Positions 28,924-49,135 of a DNA stretch of 64,000 nucleotides are shown piece after piece. The position numbers and the translations under genes are program-made. Each line of letters begins with the position of its first letter. Position 1 is the first letter of the stretch. Source of the DNA: Methylobacterium sp. NMS14P (GTDB lineage Bacteria > Pseudomonadota > Alphaproteobacteria > Rhizobiales > Beijerinckiaceae); NCBI RefSeq assembly GCF_028583545.1, contig NZ_CP087106.1, positions 930,001 through 994,000 of the forward strand, written 5' to 3'. The notes under the pieces are model-generated. The model did not search any database and had not been told where the DNA came from. It worked only from the letters and a program-made list of their open reading frames with translations.

Positions 28924-29391
28924 TCAGGGCTCCGCACCCCACGCGTCGCGGAGCGGGGCCTTCAGGCCGGCGGGGAAGAGATCCGGACCGCCCGGCACGT
29001 CGAGCCCGTCCAGATCGCACCACCGCGCCACGCAAGCGGTGCCGGAATCCTCGTGGAAGACGAAGCGCTCCTGCCCGTCGAACCGCCCCGGCGGCAGGGC
29101 GACGGGGAACAGGAACAGCACCTCGTGACCGACCTGCCCCTCATGCGTGAAGATGTTCTCCATGACGCGGGGGCCGCCGAGCACCGAGACGGTGACACCG
29201 AGCTCCTCCCGGAACTCCCGGATCAGGGCGTCCTCGACCCGCTCGCCGAACGCGACGCTGCCGCCGAGGGGCCGGACGCCTTTCAGCCGCCCGTCATCCG
29301 CGCGGACCTCCGCCACGAGCAGGCTGTTGCCGCGCCGGGGCAGACCCAGCGCCTTCACGCGAATCTCCGCAGGGGGCCGCCAGACCGTCAT
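28924..29391 (-). CDS. NUDIX hydrolase
   Basis: A 155-residue NUDIX protein. The Nudix box GX5EX7REUXEEXGU is intact in GSVAFGERVEDALIREFREE followed by LGV. The rest includes a conserved C-terminal FHEDSGTACVARWCDLDGLD. The substrate could be a nucleotide sugar or a capped or damaged nucleotide; it cannot be inferred. It is on the same strand as RluA but separated by 142 bp. Confidence 0.9.
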   Translation of the reverse strand: MTVWRPPAEIRVKALGLPRRGNSLLVAEVRADDGRLKGVRPLGGSVAFGERVEDALIREFREELGVTVSVLGGPRVMENIFTHEGQVGHEVLFLFPVALPPGRFDGQERFVFHEDSGTACVARWCDLDGLDVPGGPDLFPAGLKAPLRDAWGAEP

Positions 29392-29510
29392 CCCGCACGG
29401 GCTAGCCCGCCGTCGGTGAGGCCGCAACGGGCCGACGTGCCGCGCGCCGATCCACGGCAACAACCGGACATACGGTTGACGCCCGGGCACGCTGCGGCCA
29501 AGCTGTGCGC

Positions 29511-29674
29511 GACGGTTCCCCTCGGGGATCAAAAGGGAACGCGATGAGGGGCTCGCCCCGAAGCCGCGGCTGCCCCCGCAACTGTAAGCGGCGAGCCCTT
29601 CACCACCACGTCACTGGGTCACCCCGGGAAGACGGTGCGAGGGCGGCGACCCGCGAGCCAGGAGACCTGCCGTC
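29511..29674 (+). ncRNA. Cobalamin (AdoCbl) riboswitch
   Basis: A complete B12 riboswitch aptamer. The closing helix GACGG (29511-29515) pairs with CCGTC (29670-29674). The aptamer contains GGTTCCC with AAAAGGGAAC, the core GCCGCGGCTGCCCCCGCAAC and TGTAAGCGG (29563-29590), CACTGG and GGGAAG, and a perfect B12 box GAGCCAGGAGACCTGCC (29655-29671). It faces the TonB receptor gene starting at 29974. A 7-bp hairpin (CTGGCGG/CCGCCAG, 29713-29737) lies just downstream and may be part of the expression platform. In this class, adenosylcobalamin usually turns expression off. Confidence 0.95.
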
Positions 29675-29973
29675 AGCCGTGGTCACACGCGAAACGCGCC
29701 GGGCGGGGTGTCCTGGCGGGTGTCGAGGCGCCGCCAGTCCCGAGGGGAGGCGGTCGCCGAGGCCTCGTTCGCGGTGACGTGCCACAGCAAGCGCGCCCGC
29801 GACGCCGTTCCCCATGCCCGTCTCCGCCGTCCCGAACCACTCGAGCCCTGTCGCAGGACGCCGTCGCGCGCCCGCGCAGGCAGAGGCTGCCGGACAGCGG
29901 TCGCATTGTAATGTTATTACAATGCTTGTACGACGCGGGGGCCGGCGCGCGCCGTGCACGGACCGCTTCTCCC
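29675..29973 (+). promoter_or_regulatory. Leader between riboswitch and receptor gene
   Basis: This 299-bp leader separates the riboswitch from the receptor start codon, unusually long for an aptamer-gene distance. It contains the hairpin at 29713-29737 and the Zur-box-like palindrome at 29903-29925, which ends 48 bp before the ATG. The frame stays open, but I see no coding signal. Confidence 0.6.
29903..29925. promoter_or_regulatory. Zur-box-like perfect palindrome upstream of TonB receptor
   Basis: A perfect inverted repeat: arm GCATTGTAAT, spacer GTT, arm ATTACAATGC. The internal ATGTTAT...ACA core matches 12 of 16 positions of the perfect palindrome before the CobW-type gene at 35940. 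The base composition is strikingly AT-rich for this genome. It lies between the cobalamin riboswitch and the gene, so a second, metal-controlled promoter may sit here. Zur is the most likely ligand by resemblance; no regulator gene is in the window. Confidence 0.6.
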
Positions 29974-32157
29974 ATGTCTCCATCGACCTATCGCTCCTGC
30001 CTCGGCGGGCGGGCCCCGCTCTGCGGCGTTCTCCTCGCGCTCCTCGCCAGTCCGACCGCCGCCCAGGACGCGGTCACCCTGGACGAACTGTCCGTCGCCG
30101 GCGCGGGCGGTGACCCGGGCCGCCTCCCGCCGAACGGCCTCAACCTGCGCACGCCCGACCGGACCGCGAGCCGCCTCGGCCTGACGCCGCTGGAGACGCC
30201 GGCCAGCCTCGACATCGTGTCGGGCGAGACCGCGCGGCTCCGCGGCCAGGACACGATCGCCGAGGCCGTGACCCAGGACGCGACCGGCATCACCACCATC
30301 GCGGCGCCCGGCAACGGCAACGGCGCGTTCACGTCCCGCGGCTTTGCCGGCCCGAACTCGATCCAGCAACTCTACGACGGCACGCGCTTCTACGTCGGCG
30401 CCAATACCGTGACCTTCCCGTTCGACACGTGGAACGTCGAGCGGATCGAGGTGCTGCGCGGGCCGTCCTCGGTGCTGTACGGCGACGGCGCCATCGGCGG
30501 CGTCATCAACGTGGTGCCCAAGAAGCCGGTCTTCGTGCCGATCAACGCCGCCCGCGCGGTCATCGGCACCGACGGGGTCGCGCGGCTCGCCCTCGATTCC
30601 GGCGGCCCGCTGGGCCAGGCGGAGTACGGCGACACCTTCGCGTACCGCCTCAACGTCAGCGGCAACCGCGCCGACGGCTGGATGCGGCCGGAGGGCGATT
30701 TCCGCAACCTCGCCGTCTCCGCAGCCCTGCTGTTCCGGCCGAGCGCCGACCTCGCCTTCACCCTGAGCCACGATCTCGGCTACCAGGAACCGGCCCGCTA
30801 CTGGGGCACGCCGCTCGTCGAGGGACGCATCCCGGATCTCATCCGGTTCAACAACTACAACGTCCGCGACGCGAAGATCACCTGGGCCGACAACTGGACC
30901 CAGCTCAAGACCGAGTGGTCCCCCTCGGCCGACATCACGATCCGCAACACCGCCTACCGGCTCACCAGCCGGCGCCACTGGCTCGACGTCGAGCAGTACA
31001 GCTACAACCGCGGCACCGGGCTCGTGGACCGGGGCGACTACCTGGAGATCTACCACAGCCAGGAGCAGGTCGGAGACCGCCTCGACGCGACCTTCCGGGG
31101 CAGCCTGTTCGGGTTGCCGAACCAGTTCGTGGCCGGCTTCGACGTGAACCACATCGATTTCCGCCACACCAACAACTTCTACTTCGACCAGACCACGAGC
31201 GTCCCGCTCACCGGCTACGATCCGGGCCTGTTCCCGCAGAACGGGCGGGCCCGTCCGGCCTACGCCACGCAGACGAGCCAGGCCTCGGTCTTCGCCGAGG
31301 ACCGGCTGATCCTGTCGGACAAGCTCTCGTTCCTCACCGGCGTGCGCCTCGACGTGCCGACGCTGAACCGCGAGGATCTGCAGACCGGATCGCGGTTCGA
31401 GAAGACCTACCGGGCGCTGGGCTACCGGTTCGGCCTCGTCTACAACCCGACGCCGGACAGCGCGCTCTACGCCCAGTACAGCTTCGCCACCGACCCGGTG
31501 AACAGCCTGATCACGCTGTCGCAGTCGCTGGCCGGCTTCAAGCTCGCGACCGGCGATCAGGTCGAGATCGGCGCCAAGGGGCTGGCCTTCGACGGCGCCC
31601 TGGAATGGACCGTGGCGGGCTACCGGATCGTCAAGGACAACCTGATCTCGGCGATCCCCGGCCAGCCGACGCTCTCGACGCAGGTCGGGAGCCAGTCCTC
31701 GCAGGGCTTCGAGCTGGCGCTGGGCTGGCGGTTCGCGCCGGGCTGGCGCCTCGACGGCAACCTTGCGCTCCTCCACGCGCAGTACGACCGGTTCGACCAG
31801 ACGGTGGGCGGCGCCACGGTCTCGTATGCCGGCAACCAGCCGATCGACGTGCCCGAGCGCGTGGCCAACCTCTGGCTGACCTGGGACGTCGCCCGCGACT
31901 GGACCGCGCGGGTCGGGCTGCAGAACGTCGGGCAGGTCTACAGCGACTTCGGCAACACGGCGCGTCGCCCGGCCTACAACCTCGTCAACGTGGTCCTCGA
32001 CCATCAGGTCACGGCGGAGTCGCGCCTGTCCCTGCGGGTCTACAACCTGTTCGACAAGGTCTACGCGATCTCGGGCAACGCCGTGAACGGGGTCGGCACC
32101 AACTGGCTGCTCGGGCGCCCGCGCTCGGTCGAGGTCGCCTACACGGTGACGTGGTGA
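29974..32157 (+). CDS. TonB-dependent outer-membrane receptor (riboswitch-controlled)
   Basis: A 727-residue TonB-dependent transporter. It has a signal peptide (residues 1 to about 30, ending SPTAAQD), a TonB box VTLDELSVAG just after cleavage, a plug domain with TFPFDTWNVERIEVLRGPSS followed by VLYGDGAIGGVINV, and a C-terminal 22-strand barrel ending VEVAYTVTW with terminal aromatic residue. There is no N-terminal signalling (STN) domain. The plug looks like ferric-siderophore receptors (PLETPASLDIVSGE), not canonical BtuB. The cobalamin riboswitch and Zur-like box upstream suggest a corrinoid, cobalt or zinc-complex ligand. The downstream PepSY gene overlaps its stop by 4 bp. Confidence 0.92.
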   Translation: MSPSTYRSCLGGRAPLCGVLLALLASPTAAQDAVTLDELSVAGAGGDPGRLPPNGLNLRTPDRTASRLGLTPLETPASLDIVSGETARLRGQDTIAEAVTQDATGITTIAAPGNGNGAFTSRGFAGPNSIQQLYDGTRFYVGANTVTFPFDTWNVERIEVLRGPSSVLYGDGAIGGVINVVPKKPVFVPINAARAVIGTDGVARLALDSGGPLGQAEYGDTFAYRLNVSGNRADGWMRPEGDFRNLAVSAALLFRPSADLAFTLSHDLGYQEPARYWGTPLVEGRIPDLIRFNNYNVRDAKITWADNWTQLKTEWSPSADITIRNTAYRLTSRRHWLDVEQYSYNRGTGLVDRGDYLEIYHSQEQVGDRLDATFRGSLFGLPNQFVAGFDVNHIDFRHTNNFYFDQTTSVPLTGYDPGLFPQNGRARPAYATQTSQASVFAEDRLILSDKLSFLTGVRLDVPTLNREDLQTGSRFEKTYRALGYRFGLVYNPTPDSALYAQYSFATDPVNSLITLSQSLAGFKLATGDQVEIGAKGLAFDGALEWTVAGYRIVKDNLISAIPGQPTLSTQVGSQSSQGFELALGWRFAPGWRLDGNLALLHAQYDRFDQTVGGATVSYAGNQPIDVPERVANLWLTWDVARDWTARVGLQNVGQVYSDFGNTARRPAYNLVNVVLDHQVTAESRLSLRVYNLFDKVYAISGNAVNGVGTNWLLGRPRSVEVAYTVTW

Positions 32158-33623
32158 GCCTGCCGCGCCGGCTCGGCAAGGCGGGACGGCGCTGGCTGCT
32201 CCTGTTCCACCGCTGGGCCGGAATCGCCGCGGGGCTGCTCTTCGCCCTGTGGATCGGTTCCGGGCTGGTGATGCTCTACGTGCCGTTCCCGGCGCTCACC
32301 GCGGCCGAGCGCCTGTCACGGCTCGGCCCGATCGCCTGGGACCAAATCATGGTCTCGCCGGATGACGCTCTCCGCGCCGGCGGCCTCGGCGGCGTGCCGG
32401 CCGCCTTCGGCCTGGAGATGCGGGGCGGGGAGGCCATCTACCGGATCGCCGACCGCGACGGCGGCCGGGCCACGGTCTCGGCGCGGACCGGCGCGCGCCT
32501 CGGGCCGGTGACGCCGGAAGACGCGCGGCGTCTCGCGGGGGAGGGGACGCTGGAGGCGCGCGTCGAGCCGGTCGAGCGCGACCAGTGGACCGTCACGGCC
32601 CGGTACGACCCGCTCCGCCCCTTCCTGAAGGTCGCCCTCGACGACCCGGCGGGGACCGAACTCTACGTCTCGCGGGTCACCGGCGAGATCGCCCTCGACA
32701 CGACCCGGTCCGAGCGGGCCTGGAACTGGGTCGGCGCCGTGGCGCACTGGATCTACCTCACGCCGCTGCGCGCCCGGGCGGAGCTGTGGCGGACGGTCCT
32801 GCTGTGGCTGTCGGGCCTCGCCGCCCTGGGGGCGCTGAGCGGGCTGGCGATCGGGATCTGGCGCCTGCGCCTCCGGCGGCGCTACGCGGGCGGGGCCGTC
32901 ACGCCCTATCGCGGGCTCGCCCGCTGGCACCACCTGTTCGGCCTCGCCGGCGGGATCGGACTCAGCACCTTCATCCTGAGCGGCTGGATCTCGATGAACC
33001 CGAACCGCTGGTTCGCGTCGACCGCGGCGCCCGACGCCATCCGCGCCGCCTATGCCGGACAGCCGCAGGGCCTCGGCCTCACCGCCGAGGCCCTGCGCGG
33101 CTTCGCGGGGCCCGGGACGCGAGCGCTGCGCTTCGCCGCGATCGGCGGAGCATGGTGGATCGTCGCCGACGGCCCGGCCGGCGTCCCGGCGCGCCGCGCG
33201 GATGACGGCGCGGCCCTCGATGCCGCCGCGATCGCGCGTGCCGCGGCCCCGACGCTGCCCGGCGGCGGGTTGCGGGCGGCGGAGCGCCTGAGCGCCTACG
33301 ACCTGTACTGGTACCCGCACGGGTCCGATCCGCGGCCGCTCCCGGTGCTGCGCCTGCGGTTCGGCGACCCGGACGCCACCTGGCTCCACGTCGATCCCCG
33401 GGACGGAACCATCCTCCAGCGCCTGGACCGCTCCGGCCGGATCAACCGCTGGCTGTTCGACGCGGCGCACCGCCTCGATCTGCCCGGGCTCACAGGCAAC
33501 CGCCCGCTCCACGACGCGGCCCAGTGGATCCTCAACCTCCTGGCGGCCGGGATCGCCGTGACGGGGATCGTCGCGGGCTGGCGCAGGCTGCGCCGCGGCC
33601 AGCCGGCTCCGAAACCTCGATGA
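32154..33623 (+). CDS. PepSY-associated transmembrane protein
   Basis: A 489-residue inner-membrane protein of the PepSY-TM (iron-regulated membrane protein) family. The N-terminus RRWLLLFHRWAGIAAGLLFA is the family hallmark (HRWxG), with further membrane segments near WRTVLLWLSGLAALGALSGL, the HHLFGLAGGIGLSTFILSGW region, and a C-terminal helix WILNLLAAGIAVTGIVAGW. PepSY-like periplasmic domains lie between them. Such proteins are paired with TonB receptors and are proposed to reduce or release the metal from its chelate in the periplasm. The GTG start overlaps the receptor stop (GTGA), giving translational coupling. Confidence 0.9.
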   Translation: MSLPRRLGKAGRRWLLLFHRWAGIAAGLLFALWIGSGLVMLYVPFPALTAAERLSRLGPIAWDQIMVSPDDALRAGGLGGVPAAFGLEMRGGEAIYRIADRDGGRATVSARTGARLGPVTPEDARRLAGEGTLEARVEPVERDQWTVTARYDPLRPFLKVALDDPAGTELYVSRVTGEIALDTTRSERAWNWVGAVAHWIYLTPLRARAELWRTVLLWLSGLAALGALSGLAIGIWRLRLRRRYAGGAVTPYRGLARWHHLFGLAGGIGLSTFILSGWISMNPNRWFASTAAPDAIRAAYAGQPQGLGLTAEALRGFAGPGTRALRFAAIGGAWWIVADGPAGVPARRADDGAALDAAAIARAAAPTLPGGGLRAAERLSAYDLYWYPHGSDPRPLPVLRLRFGDPDATWLHVDPRDGTILQRLDRSGRINRWLFDAAHRLDLPGLTGNRPLHDAAQWILNLLAAGIAVTGIVAGWRRLRRGQPAPKPR

Positions 33624-33635
33624 CCGACGCGGCCC

Positions 33636-35780
33636 TCAGAACCGCGCGGTCAGGAACAGCCGCACGTTCCGCCCCGGCAGCAGGATCTCGTCCTTCTTGA
33701 ACGAGGTCGAGTTGCGGATGTCGTCGTTCAGGAGGTTGCGGCCCTGGACGCCGAGGGTGATCGCGCTCGCCCCGTAGACCGCGGGATCGACGGCCTTGGT
33801 GTAGCTCAGCTCGGCGCGCAGGTCGTCGTAGCCGGGGGTCGGCGTCTCGTACACGGCCGTGGCGTCGTGGCTGAAGGCGTGGAGCAGGTTCACCCGCGCG
33901 AACCACCCGTCGGCCCGCAGGTAGACGCCGCCGCCGAGCCGGTAGGGCGGGATGCGCGGCACGTTCGCGCCGTTGTCGAACTGGGCGCGGACGAAGTCGA
34001 ACTGCGCCTCGACGCCGGCGAAGCCGTTGCCCACCGGCACGAGGTCGTACTGGCCGATGATCTCGGCGCCGTAGAAGGTCGCGTTCTGCTGCTGGTAGAC
34101 GATCTGCCGGTTGTCGGTGCCGACGCCGCAGGACGCGAAATCGTCGTCGCAGGTCAGGCCCGTGTAGTTCCGGTAGATGAAGCCGGTGTAGCGCGTGAAG
34201 TAGCCGGTGGCGTCGAGGCGGAACGGCCCCTCGGCCCGCCGGATGCTGGCCTCGACGGTCCGGGCGCGCTCCTTCTTGAGATTCGGGTTGCCGATCTCGA
34301 AGGTCGCGGTGGCGTCGTGCGGGCCCTGCGAGAACAGCTCGTAGCCCGTGGGCCCGCGCTCGACGTAGGAGCCGGTGAGGCTCGCCACGAAGCCGTAGGG
34401 CAGGTCCTGCAGGGCGCCGATGCTGGCGCTCTTCGGGGCGAAGCGCCGGGTCCGCGCGTACTGGAACGGCTCCTGGCCGTCGACCGGCACGTAGTCGGAG
34501 GGGAACTGGGCCGCCGTGCTCGACAGCCGGTCGACCTCGTAGCGCCCGGCCGCCTGCAGCCGCGTGCCCGGACGCAGTTCCAGCTCCTCGAACAGGTAGA
34601 CCGCGTTCGCGCGCGACTCCGTCTTCGGCAGGAACGATTCGAGCTGCGTGTTGATCACGCGCCGGTCCGACTGGAAGCCGAGCGCGCCGGTGAGCTTGCC
34701 GAACGGGGTGAAGACCGGGACGTGCTGGAGTTCCAGGCGCCCCTCGGCCTCGCGGTTCTTGAAGATCGCCTGGACGCCCTCGATCCCGTCGTCGCCGATC
34801 CCGACCTCGTTGTGACGGTAGACCGAGTAGCCCGCCCAGTAGCGGATCACCTCGAAGGGCCCGTCGAGCGGGCGGTACTCGCCCCGCGACAGGACTCGGT
34901 CCTGGTTCGGGGTCAGGCGGGTCCGGTCCTGCTCGGCGACGCCGCCGGGGATCGCGTAGACCGCGTCGTAGTGGCTGAAGGAGATGCCCACGAAGCCGCG
35001 GTCGCCGATCGCCGAGATGCCGACCGCGCCGCCCTGCGACTCGTTGTAGGAGTTGCGCTGGATCCCGCCGGGGATCGCGTAGCTGTCGTTCGCGGTCCTG
35101 AAGCCGTCGGCGTGGACCGCGATGCCGTCGCCGCCGGCATCCACCGTGGCGGCGCCGAGGCGGCCGTTATCCACGCTGGAGAAGCCGCTGGTGACTTGGC
35201 CCTGCACCCCGTTCGCCGGGATGAAGGTCGGCACCCGGTTGTTGTCGGCCGAGACGACGCCGCCGATGGCCCCCGAGCCGTAGCGCAGGGTCGCGGGGCC
35301 GCGGATCACCTCGATCCGGTCGGCGACCAGCGGGTTGACCGGCACGGCGTGGTCCTCGCCGAGGTCGGACACGCCGCCGTTGACGATGCCGTTCTCCTGG
35401 ATCCGCACCCGGGCATTGTCGAGGCCGCGGATGATCGGCCGGGACGCTGCCCCCGGCGCGTAGGTCGTGCCCGAGATGCCCGGCCTGTCGAACAGGGCGT
35501 CACCCAGGGTCCGCGGCTGGTCGCGCGCGATCTGGTCCTGGGTCACCACCGTCACCGGTGAGAACGTGTTGGTCGCCACCGGCAGGACGCCGATCGGCAC
35601 GGCGGCATCCGCCGCGACCGCGCCGCGCGACGGCTGGATCGGGCTCGGGCTGGTGACGCTGAGCTCGTCGAGGGCGACGGCCTGCTGCGCCCGCACGGCG
35701 GACGGTGTCAGGAGGCCGACGCAGACGGTCGAGGACAGGACCGTGCTGGCGAGGAAACCGAAGCGGCGCGAGGGAAGCAT
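33636..35780 (-). CDS. ZnuD-like TonB-dependent receptor
   Basis: A 714-residue TonB-dependent receptor. It has a signal peptide (RRFGFLASTVLSSTVCVGLL to RAQ), a TonB box VALDELSVTS nearly identical to that of the first receptor, a plug with RPIIRGLDNARVRIQENGI, then EDHAVPVNPLVADRIEVIRG and PATLRYGSGAIGGVVSADNN, and a barrel ending VRLFLTARF. The plug sequence and the extracellular cysteine loop (CDDDFASCG) match the zinc receptor ZnuD group. It is divergent from the ZigA-type GTPase and shares with it a Zur-like regulatory region. Zinc import under starvation is the likely role. Confidence 0.88.
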   Translation of the reverse strand: MLPSRRFGFLASTVLSSTVCVGLLTPSAVRAQQAVALDELSVTSPSPIQPSRGAVAADAAVPIGVLPVATNTFSPVTVVTQDQIARDQPRTLGDALFDRPGISGTTYAPGAASRPIIRGLDNARVRIQENGIVNGGVSDLGEDHAVPVNPLVADRIEVIRGPATLRYGSGAIGGVVSADNNRVPTFIPANGVQGQVTSGFSSVDNGRLGAATVDAGGDGIAVHADGFRTANDSYAIPGGIQRNSYNESQGGAVGISAIGDRGFVGISFSHYDAVYAIPGGVAEQDRTRLTPNQDRVLSRGEYRPLDGPFEVIRYWAGYSVYRHNEVGIGDDGIEGVQAIFKNREAEGRLELQHVPVFTPFGKLTGALGFQSDRRVINTQLESFLPKTESRANAVYLFEELELRPGTRLQAAGRYEVDRLSSTAAQFPSDYVPVDGQEPFQYARTRRFAPKSASIGALQDLPYGFVASLTGSYVERGPTGYELFSQGPHDATATFEIGNPNLKKERARTVEASIRRAEGPFRLDATGYFTRYTGFIYRNYTGLTCDDDFASCGVGTDNRQIVYQQQNATFYGAEIIGQYDLVPVGNGFAGVEAQFDFVRAQFDNGANVPRIPPYRLGGGVYLRADGWFARVNLLHAFSHDATAVYETPTPGYDDLRAELSYTKAVDPAVYGASAITLGVQGRNLLNDDIRNSTSFKKDEILLPGRNVRLFLTARF

Positions 35781-35791
35781 CGAGACTCACA

Positions 35792-35807
35792 CAGTGTTAT
35801 ATCGTTT
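35792..35807 (-). promoter_or_regulatory. Degenerate Zur-box-like site before ZnuD-like gene
   Basis: CAGTGTTATATCGTTT matches 12 of 16 positions of the perfect palindrome at 35940-35955 and lies 12 bp upstream of the ZnuD-like start codon. A further weaker match (AAACGTTACATCGTTG, 11 of 16) is at 35870-35885. Both could be Zur sites controlling the receptor, but the symmetry is imperfect. Confidence 0.45.
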
Positions 35808-35939
35808 CATTGTTGCGGCGCGTCGCTTCGGTGCAAGCGTTAATCCCAAGCGCGCCGGACACCGCGGAGAAACGTTACATCGTTGCAACAGCGGCTTGGC
35901 CTGCGCTCCCGTCCAGCTCCTTGAAACAGGTTGACTTTG

Positions 35940-35955
35940 AAATGTTATAACATTT
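35940..35955 (+). promoter_or_regulatory. Perfect Zur-box-like palindrome before CobW-type gene
   Basis: AAATGTTATAACATTT is a perfect 16-bp palindrome ending 10 bp before the ATG of the CobW-family gene. It contains the TGTTATAACA core of Zur boxes (E. coli consensus half GAAATGTTATA). A candidate -35 element TTGAAA at 35921-35926 lies 17 bp before GTTATA at 35944, so binding would cover the -10 region. This is the strongest operator-like site in the window. Confidence 0.7.
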
Positions 35956-35965
35956 TGATCATGAC

Positions 35966-37186
35966 ATGACCCAGCACGACACCCGCCTTCCCGTCACCGT
36001 CCTGTCCGGCTTCCTCGGAGCCGGGAAGACGACCCTGCTCAATCACGTGCTCAACAACCGCGACGGCCGCCGCGTCGCGGTGATCGTCAACGACATGAGC
36101 GAGGTGAACATCGACGCCGACTTGGTCCGTGCGGGCGGGGCCGACCTGTCCCGGACCGACGAGACGCTGGTCGAGATGACCAACGGCTGCATTTGTTGCA
36201 CCCTGCGCGACGATCTGCTCGCCGAGGTCCGGCGGCTGTCGGAGACGGGGCGGTTCGACTACCTGCTGATCGAGGGGACCGGCATCGCCGAGCCGCTGCC
36301 GGTCGCCTCGACCTTCTCGTTCCGCGACGAGGCCGGCCGCTCGCTCTCGGATCTCGCGCGGCTCGACACGATGGTCACGGTGGTCGACGCGGTGAACCTG
36401 CTCAAGGATTACGGCTCGGCCGCCTTCCTGCGCGAGCGCGGCGAGACCGCCGGCGCCGAGGACACGCGCACGCTCGTGGACCTGCTCGTGGAGCAGATCG
36501 AGTTCGCCGACGTGGTGGTGATCAACAAGGCGCACGACGTCTCCGCCGAGCACCTCGCGCTGGTCCGCTCCGTCGTGCGCGGCCTGAACGCCGATGCCCG
36601 GATCCTCGAGACCGATCACGGGCGCGCGCCGCTCGCCGCGATCCTCGACACCGGCCTGTTCGACGAGGAGAAGGCCCAGCAGCACCCGCTCTGGTTCAAG
36701 GAACTCTACGGCGCGCACGAGCACGTGCCGGAGACCGAGGAGTACGGCATCGCCTCCTTCGTCTACCGAGCTCGCCGGCCCTTCGACCCGGAGCGCTTCA
36801 ACGCCTTCGTCAACGCCACGTGGCCGGGCCTGATCCGCGCGAAGGGCCACTTCTGGCTCGCGACCCGGCCGGACTGGGTCGGCGAGTTCTCCCTCGCGGG
36901 CGCCGTGGCCCGGGTCTCGGCTATGGGGTTCTGGTGGTCGGCCGTGCCGCGGCGGCGCTGGCCGGAGGCGCCCGAGTTCCAGGCGCGGCTCCAGGATGTC
37001 TGGAGCGAGGTCTGGGGCGACCGGCGCCAGGAACTGGTCTTCATCGGCGCCGGCATGGACGCGGCGGCGCTGACGGCGGCGCTGGACGCCTGCCTAATCG
37101 AGACCGGTGCGGACCGGGAGCCGTTCGATCCCGCACCCTATCGCGGCCTGCCGGACCCGTTCCCGGCGTGGCGCCGCGCGGCCTGA
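35966..37186 (+). CDS. CobW/COG0523 family GTPase, ZigA-like zinc metallochaperone
   Basis: A 406-residue P-loop GTPase. Walker A is GFLGAGKTT (15-23), the metal-binding CxCC motif is CICC (75-78), followed by [17 protein letters not shown] and [14 protein letters not shown] (the base-recognition NKxD position reads NKAH). The C-terminal CobW_C domain contains [20 protein letters not shown] and [19 protein letters not shown], as in zinc-starvation ZigA proteins. Zur-regulated COG0523 GTPases deliver zinc to priority enzymes during starvation. The Zur-like palindrome 10 bp upstream supports this over cobaltochelatase CobW. Convergent with MarR. Confidence 0.9.
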
Positions 37187-48846: not shown

Positions 48847-49050
48847 TCAGCGGTGTCCTCAATCTCGATCGGGCGGAGAACCGACGCGGCGGTCCCGCCA
48901 TCGCCCGTGTCCGGCATATCGGTCCGGCCGGGCGGTAGGCAAGCGCCGAGGGTCCCGACGGGTTCCGCGCGGGAACGTCGCGGCCACGCTTCGCCGCGGT
49001 GTGGCGCGCGGGTCGCACAGCGCCGCAGCCCGACAGGACCGGGCGCACAT

Positions 49051-49085
49051 AAGAAGGCCCCGTCCGGGATCGGACAGGGCCTCAA
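49051..49085 (-). terminator. Intrinsic terminator, minus-strand orientation
   Basis: In the minus-strand RNA, AGGCCCTGTCC pairs with GGACGGGGCCT (one G-U wobble) around a GATCCC loop, followed by a TCTT run. The plus-strand version has a C-A mismatch and no T tract, so termination acts on leftward transcripts. No minus-strand protein gene ends here, which points to a small RNA. Confidence 0.65.
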
Positions 49086-49135
49086 GTCGAAGGGAGGAAA
49101 CGCCCGCCATGGGCGCCGACAGCCTCGCAATTCAC
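49051..49135 (-). ncRNA. Putative small RNA ending at intrinsic terminator
   Basis: Reading leftward, a 5-bp hairpin CGCCC-ATGGC-GGGCG (49101-49115) is followed by an unpaired TTTCCTCCCTTCGACTTG linker and then the terminator. Hairpin, anti-Shine-Dalgarno-like CCUCCC linker and terminator together resemble trans-acting small RNAs of alphaproteobacteria. The 5' end is not defined; the start at 49135 is a guess. It sits in a 450-bp gap (48847-49296) with no other gene. Confidence 0.35.

Follow-up and report, generated by a model that had tools for sequence, protein, structure and literature searches.

Cobalamin (B12) riboswitches and Zur boxes are individually well known, and several described systems resemble parts of the locus analyzed here. 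In Caulobacter, the TonB receptor genes znuK, znuL, and znuM likewise have a Zur-type palindrome over the promoter (PMC4176598), although their products differ from the present receptor, which is siderophore/CrtA-like; a term search of PMC4176598 returned no B12 and only four "cobal" words, the one displayed belonging to a cobalamin-independent enzyme. A Novosphingobium TonB receptor predicted for cobalt (PMC7689651) likewise has a riboswitch directly upstream, but it is followed by genes for a NiCoT permease and CobW, and the passage of PMC7689651 on this case does not mention a Zur box. The IcuAB system of Methylobacterium extorquens (PMC2732905) is likewise a TonB receptor operon tied to cobalt in the same bacterial group; its second protein, IcuB, is a 243-aa COG5266 protein, unlike the PepSY-type protein of the present operon. 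CrtA of Bordetella pertussis (9RVQ/9RVX) imports chelated copper, and a PepSY gene follows in >75% of CrtA loci (PMC12914433). It is the nearest solved relative of our receptor and shares with it the adjacent PepSY gene and a conserved essential histidine. According to a 2021 review, no cobalt-specific outer-membrane receptor has been confirmed (PMC7689651). Among the open full-text matches listed, we found no earlier report of a conserved aptamer/Zur-box pair on one outer-membrane receptor operon.

The DNA analyzed here (the window) is a 64-kb stretch of a 6.88-Mb Methylobacterium genome (G000:C1:930001-994000). Receptors 94 to 96% identical to the one in the window are present in Methylobacterium relatives, including M. 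fujisawaense and M. longum. The features discussed below, in window coordinates, are as follows:

29476..29504, + strand: predicted promoter P1, upstream of the aptamer
29496..29688, + strand: cobalamin riboswitch aptamer RF00174 (cmscan)
29666..29785, + strand: conserved riboswitch expression platform, overlapping the 3' end of the aptamer and terminating in GGTGACGTGCCAC
29814..30113, + strand: ORF1, with its ATG 28 nt past the platform, in a frame different from that of the receptor and overlapping the receptor start
29903..29925, unstranded: predicted Zur operator, with core TGTAATGTTATTACA at 29907-29921
29906..29934, + strand: predicted promoter P2, downstream of the aptamer and overlapping the operator
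29974..32157, + strand: TonB-dependent receptor, CrtA-like, 727 aa, ATG at 29974
32154..33623, + strand: PepSY-type membrane protein, 489 aa, its start overlapping the receptor stop
33636..35780, - strand: second TonB-dependent receptor, ZnuD-like
35791-35813, 35869-35891, and 35934-35956: three more Zur-like sites, between the ZnuD-like and ZigA genes
35966..37186, + strand: zinc metallochaperone GTPase ZigA (COG0523), divergent from the ZnuD-like gene

Aptamer and box in the window and among relatives

By its match to RF00174, which spans the whole model (1-189 of 189; 115 bits; cut-off, 31.5; E, 4.2e-28), the segment at 29496-29688 is a cobalamin riboswitch. The complete AdoCbl aptamer that a sequence-only reading of the window had placed at 29511-29674 proved to be the core of this Infernal match. 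The same reading had described a perfect 10+10 bp palindrome at 29903-29925 and a gap of 228 bp between the two elements, and both descriptions hold: the arms (29903-29912 and 29916-29925; 10 nt each) are 100% complementary around a 3-nt spacer, and the interval 29675-29902 is 228 nt long. The palindrome begins 71 bp before the receptor ATG.

The survey covered 127 relatives of the receptor, of which 117 belong to the genus and 10 come from elsewhere. Both aptamer and box were present in 77, the aptamer only in 38, and no aptamer in 6, while 6 were undetermined; within the genus, the counts were 75 with both elements and 32 with the aptamer only. The pair of aptamer and predicted Zur box is therefore, at the level of sequence motifs, widely conserved in Methylobacterium. 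A FastTree phylogeny requires at least 8 changes for the group having both elements, versus a shuffled mean of 36, a clustering inflated by near-copies; the box has been gained or lost several times. Species lacking it include those of the Methylorubrum type. Outside the genus, Enterovirga aerilata (L225) and a genome of that same genus (L310) carry both elements (box scores, 28.5 and 30.0), leaders L311 and L312 from another genus of the family carry the aptamer only, and the distant relatives L237 and L238 carry neither. Since four Sphingomonas relatives (L234, L235, L236, and L239; approximately 40% identity) have the aptamer and lack the box, the aptamer seems to predate the box. Because some species naturally carry the box and others do not, its role can be tested directly.

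Two predicted promoters and the proposed logic of the operon

P1 consists of a -35 element TTGACG (29476-29481), a 17-nt spacer, and a -10-like CAAGCT (29499-29504), which would place the transcript start near 29511. Of 91 scorable leaders, 76 have TTGAC in the 45 nt that precede the aptamer (0.024 by shuffling), and in 62 of the 91 it is followed by [TA]AGC. P2 would use TTGTAA (29906-29911), within the left arm of the operator, as its -35 element and TACGAC (29929-29934), 17 nt downstream, as its -10-like element. A generic sigma-70 scan of 29380-30000 detected neither promoter.

The expression platform between aptamer and receptor is also conserved. Its end motif, GGTGACGTGCCAC, is present in 109 of the 117 genus leaders and in 108 of the 110 having a B12 box, and its 5' part, CGTGGTCACA, is invariant across 46 aligned leaders, all of which had been preselected for the end motif. 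An identical type of platform stands behind the aptamers of btuB and of two other riboswitched receptors in the same genome, where, read by eye, a GTG start follows approximately 19 to 23 nt past the platform. In 25 of the 32 aptamer-only genus leaders, the receptor frame opens with an ATG 25 to 29 nt after the platform. This is the position of the ORF1 ATG in the window; among boxed leaders, an ATG lies at +14 to +35 in 66 of 78 (versus 0.14 by shuffling), with all three frames represented. The distance from the ORF1 ATG to the receptor shifts by 2 nt among the closest relatives; thus, ORF1 is probably not a conserved protein. As a separate observation, the conserved platform start codon opening this out-of-frame ORF1 (29814-30113) may make ORF1 a decoy or a coupling ORF.

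We consider it fairly probable that the operon at 29974-33623 imports a chelated transition metal under two parallel inputs, i.e., P1 with the riboswitch and P2 with Zur. The aptamer, the box, their conservation, the P1 and P2 patterns, the likeness to znuA boxes, and the kinship with CrtA were computed; binding by Zur, the direction of both effects, readthrough from P1, and the ligand are our inferences, and the steps would combine as follows. For the first input, P1 would produce a leader RNA carrying the aptamer, and cobalamin-filled aptamer would block initiation at the ATG after the platform; lost translation or early termination would then reduce readthrough into the receptor. Since the riboswitch would act on the start of ORF1, which is out of frame here, the coupling of this step to the receptor is a conditional part of the proposal. 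For the second input, P2 would yield a short mRNA free of the riboswitch, and zinc-loaded Zur would shut this promoter; this sign is assumed from the position of the box, because a Caulobacter Zur site located upstream of the -35 element activates (PMC4176598). The receptor would thus be made at low zinc (from P2) or at low cobalamin (from P1). The 38 relatives having the aptamer only and the copper cargo of CrtA tell against this proposal. The sequence-only reading had proposed one operon answering to two regulators through stacked elements. The dual control gained good in silico support from the znuA-like box, the zinc-gene neighborhood, and the 77 of 127 relatives having both elements; the stacking fared less well because the box fits the -35 element of a promoter downstream of the aptamer, so that aptamer and box are probably not on a single transcript and the inputs look parallel.

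The most serious competitor is a reading in which, in boxed species, the riboswitch governs nothing but ORF1, with the receptor expressed from P2 like any other Zur-controlled gene. ORF1, the box, and P2 do all sit between the aptamer and the receptor, and the platform ATG is out of the receptor frame (frames 1 and 2) in 45 of the 66 boxed leaders that have one. We nevertheless judge this reading unlikely, given that the aptamer and platform are kept alike in boxed and unboxed leaders and that a generic scan of 29380-30000 found no terminator-like site. Somewhat more improbable is a roadblock, i.e., a box without a promoter of its own, at which Zur would stand in the way of transcription from P1; expression would then require low zinc together with low cobalamin. 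The box does fall inside the P1 unit, the second receptor family described below has a series order, and the P2 -10 element is absent from the equivalent place in 17 boxed leaders of distant relatives (<63% identity). Against the roadblock stands the conserved TA(G) located 17 nt past TTGTAA in the 62 distinct leaders of relatives with at least 63% identity, where the first three -10 positions are T in 57, A in 56, and G in 48.

The palindrome as a predicted Zur operator

Perfect 10+10 palindromes with loops of 0 to 8 nt are no rarity in the GC-rich window, with nine listings, some of them overlapping. The A/T content of the Zur-like palindrome is 16/23, and that of the next highest window palindrome is 7/22. 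The pattern GNAATGTTATNACANTNC has seven window matches with up to three mismatches, versus 0.12 expected; three are listings of the palindrome, three lie between the second receptor and ZigA genes, and one lies elsewhere. Genome-wide, perfect TGTWAYNNNRTWACA occurs only at the palindrome and at a site approximately 150 bp before a ZnuA domain match, and it is not enriched relative to the reversed control (2 versus 1 perfect matches; 11 versus 10 with one mismatch). The meaning of the palindrome therefore depends on its location and conservation, and since the TGTWAYNNNRTWACA count was no higher than that of the control, we built a matrix from znuA boxes.

The matrix was based on the boxes (19 distinct) of 30 znuA loci, i.e., the 30 best-scoring loci of 59 genomes searched. 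All 30 have a match with up to two mismatches within 400 bp upstream, a level that shuffled 600-bp stretches reach in 23 of 1,500 cases. Because these sites were chosen with a pattern written after the receptor boxes had been seen, the matrix is not wholly independent. The palindrome scored 29.2 and ranked first in the 64-kb window, in agreement with the Zur-box-like core claimed from the sequence; ranks 2 to 4 were taken by 35791-35813 (18.6), 35934-35956 (17.6), and 35869-35891 (11.6), and no other window site exceeded 7. Over 2,200 shuffled leaders, the 99th percentile was 4.5 and the maximum was 16.6. None of the seven other over-cut-off aptamers of the genome has a box above 3.0 within 500 bp. 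In six relatives (L050, L052, L053, L057, L059, and L091), the receptor box, read on the opposite strand, is identical to the znuA core of this genome, TGTAACAATGTTACA. Paracoccus Zur boxes tested by gel shift (table 7 of PMC5387054) differ from the window box at 3 of 15 positions and from the orthologous L073 box at 1 of 15, and none of 200,000 random 15-mers came within three differences of them.

The neighboring genes also point to zinc. The ZnuD-like receptor (33636-35780) matches NF038289 with 270.6 bits, under the cut-off of 950, and PDB ZnuD 4rdr with an E value of 5.6e-50; the ZigA gene reaches 604.8 bits with NF038288 (cut-off, 600). Two Fur-family proteins were found in the genome, one Zur-like and one Irr. 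For the former (L275:4486-4968), Zur is the best model (113 bits, under the cut-off of 167), and the PDB matches are 7dh7 (E, 1e-27) and Escherichia coli Zur 4mtd (E, 3e-26). On the basis of the first rank with the znuA matrix, the zinc-gene neighbors, and the finding of only a Zur-like protein and Irr, the palindrome at 29903-29925 is very probably a Zur operator.

It is highly improbable that a regulator other than Zur reads the palindrome. The Zur-like protein does score under the curated Zur cut-off, the zur/ABC intergenic site reaches only 4.1 with the znuA matrix, and one-mismatch sites exist without a known zinc gene; however, the motif stands before znuA in 30/30 loci and also in the stretch separating the ZigA gene from the ZnuD-like one, and apart from the Zur-like protein, Irr was the sole Fur-family member found. 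Action as an RNA hairpin has a negligible probability: the window arms are perfect, but across relatives the motif is kept and the pairing is not, since the six-base arms are fully complementary in only 18 of the 60 distinct boxes, as expected of a protein site.

Upstream of the likely start of a second COG0523 gene of this genome (G000:C1:4122382-4123545; L277) lies a Zur-like site with one mismatch (score, 16.4).

Receptor kinship, candidate ligand, and other riboswitched loci

As the sequence-only reading had supposed, the receptor is, by model scores, of the siderophore type and not BtuB: it exceeds the cut-off of TIGR01783 (244.9 versus 223.5 bits), and the BtuB identity was rejected with TIGR01779 (67.6 of 599.7 bits) and PRK10641 (34.3 of 836 bits). 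A separate btuB-btuF-btuC-like operon with its own aptamer is located elsewhere in the genome; BtuB is the best model for its receptor (231.5 bits, also under the cut-off of 599.7). The closest PDB chain of the window receptor is 9rvq, CrtA (E, 4.5e-93; next, 3.5e-31); in the first four blocks of the alignment, identity is 32% (124/387). The CrtA ligand site comprises Y130, W265, E337, Q356, H358, and R395, of which H358 is essential (PMC12914433). Four of the six are kept in the window receptor (W265, E337, H358, and R395 as W277, E340, H361, and R397, respectively), whereas Q356 and Y130 are replaced (by I359 and V141, respectively); CrtA is, moreover, copper-responsive in B. pertussis (PMC12914433). 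In an alignment of 54 sequences, E340 and H361 each occur in 53, W277 in 38 (F in 14), and R397 in 37. The PF03929 match of the 489-aa PepSY-type protein is weak (23.3 bits; cut-off, 28.8). Where the sequence was long enough, a PepSY homologue comes directly after the receptor in 69 of 79 boxed leaders and 15 of 35 unboxed leaders of the genus. In our reading, the window receptor may work like CrtA, though we do not assign it to CrtA.

An IcuA identity was also considered and rejected, as the receptor gene is followed by that of a PepSY-type protein and not of IcuB; the published icuA primers had no match with up to two mismatches among the loci examined, which did not include strain AM1. Regarding names, the sequence records of chain PDB 6i96 give the pseudopaline receptor CntO, whereas its entry is titled FoxA, and several Methylobacterium relatives are also named CntO (seen at proteins P0065, P0096, and P0119).

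A receptor switched on when zinc or cobalamin is short would fit a ligand carrying cobalt and/or zinc, i.e., a cobalt and/or zinc chelate would suit both inputs. Of the ligands envisaged from the sequence (corrinoid, cobalt, or zinc chelate), the corrinoid has become less likely because the separate riboswitched btuB-btuF-btuC operon exists, and the closest solved relative imports chelated copper. The conserved pair suggests that the cell links its zinc supply to its cobalt/B12 supply. It also offers an experimental way to ask whether any outer-membrane receptor is specific for cobalt and what cargo CrtA-like receptors take up outside copper-regulated operons.

A second receptor family of the genus has the reverse order of Zur-like box, promoter, and aptamer. 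Its member in the window's genome (G000:C2:289996-292215; locus L273, G000:C2:289637-292218) adjoins a NicO gene, and its leader consists of a Zur-like box (24.9), 12 nt, TTGACC, 17 nt, AACTAT, and an aptamer that has decayed below the cut-off in this genome (29.9 versus 31.5 bits). The family, with relatives L314-L343, had matches in 77 of 110 genomes. Among the 30 best-matching loci, 27 have a site scoring at least 13 within 900 bp upstream; of 20 of these loci scanned with Rfam, 15 have an aptamer over the cut-off, and 14 of these are also boxed. The box center would lie near -60, a position that recalls the activating Caulobacter site. If Zur activates this family, the sign would be opposite to that at the window operon.

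A general zinc and B12 circuit is a tentative extension that we regard as somewhat doubtful: two receptor families would carry the elements in opposite orders with OR versus series logic, Zur would be a joint zinc/cobalt sensor, and the riboswitch would read the cofactor. In Synechocystis, cobalt binds tightly to Zur and activates the protein (PMC7689651), and it is a guess that Methylobacterium Zur might report cobalt too. If such a circuit exists, the cell would decide between zinc and cobalt at the outer membrane.

Five further TonB-receptor genes (L269-L272 and L282), one of them btuB-like, and a CbtA/CobN locus also lie behind cobalamin aptamers. Additionally, the window contains a match to the small RNA family RF00519 (suhB/mmgR) at 49042-49121 on the - strand (46.1 bits; cut-off, 41).
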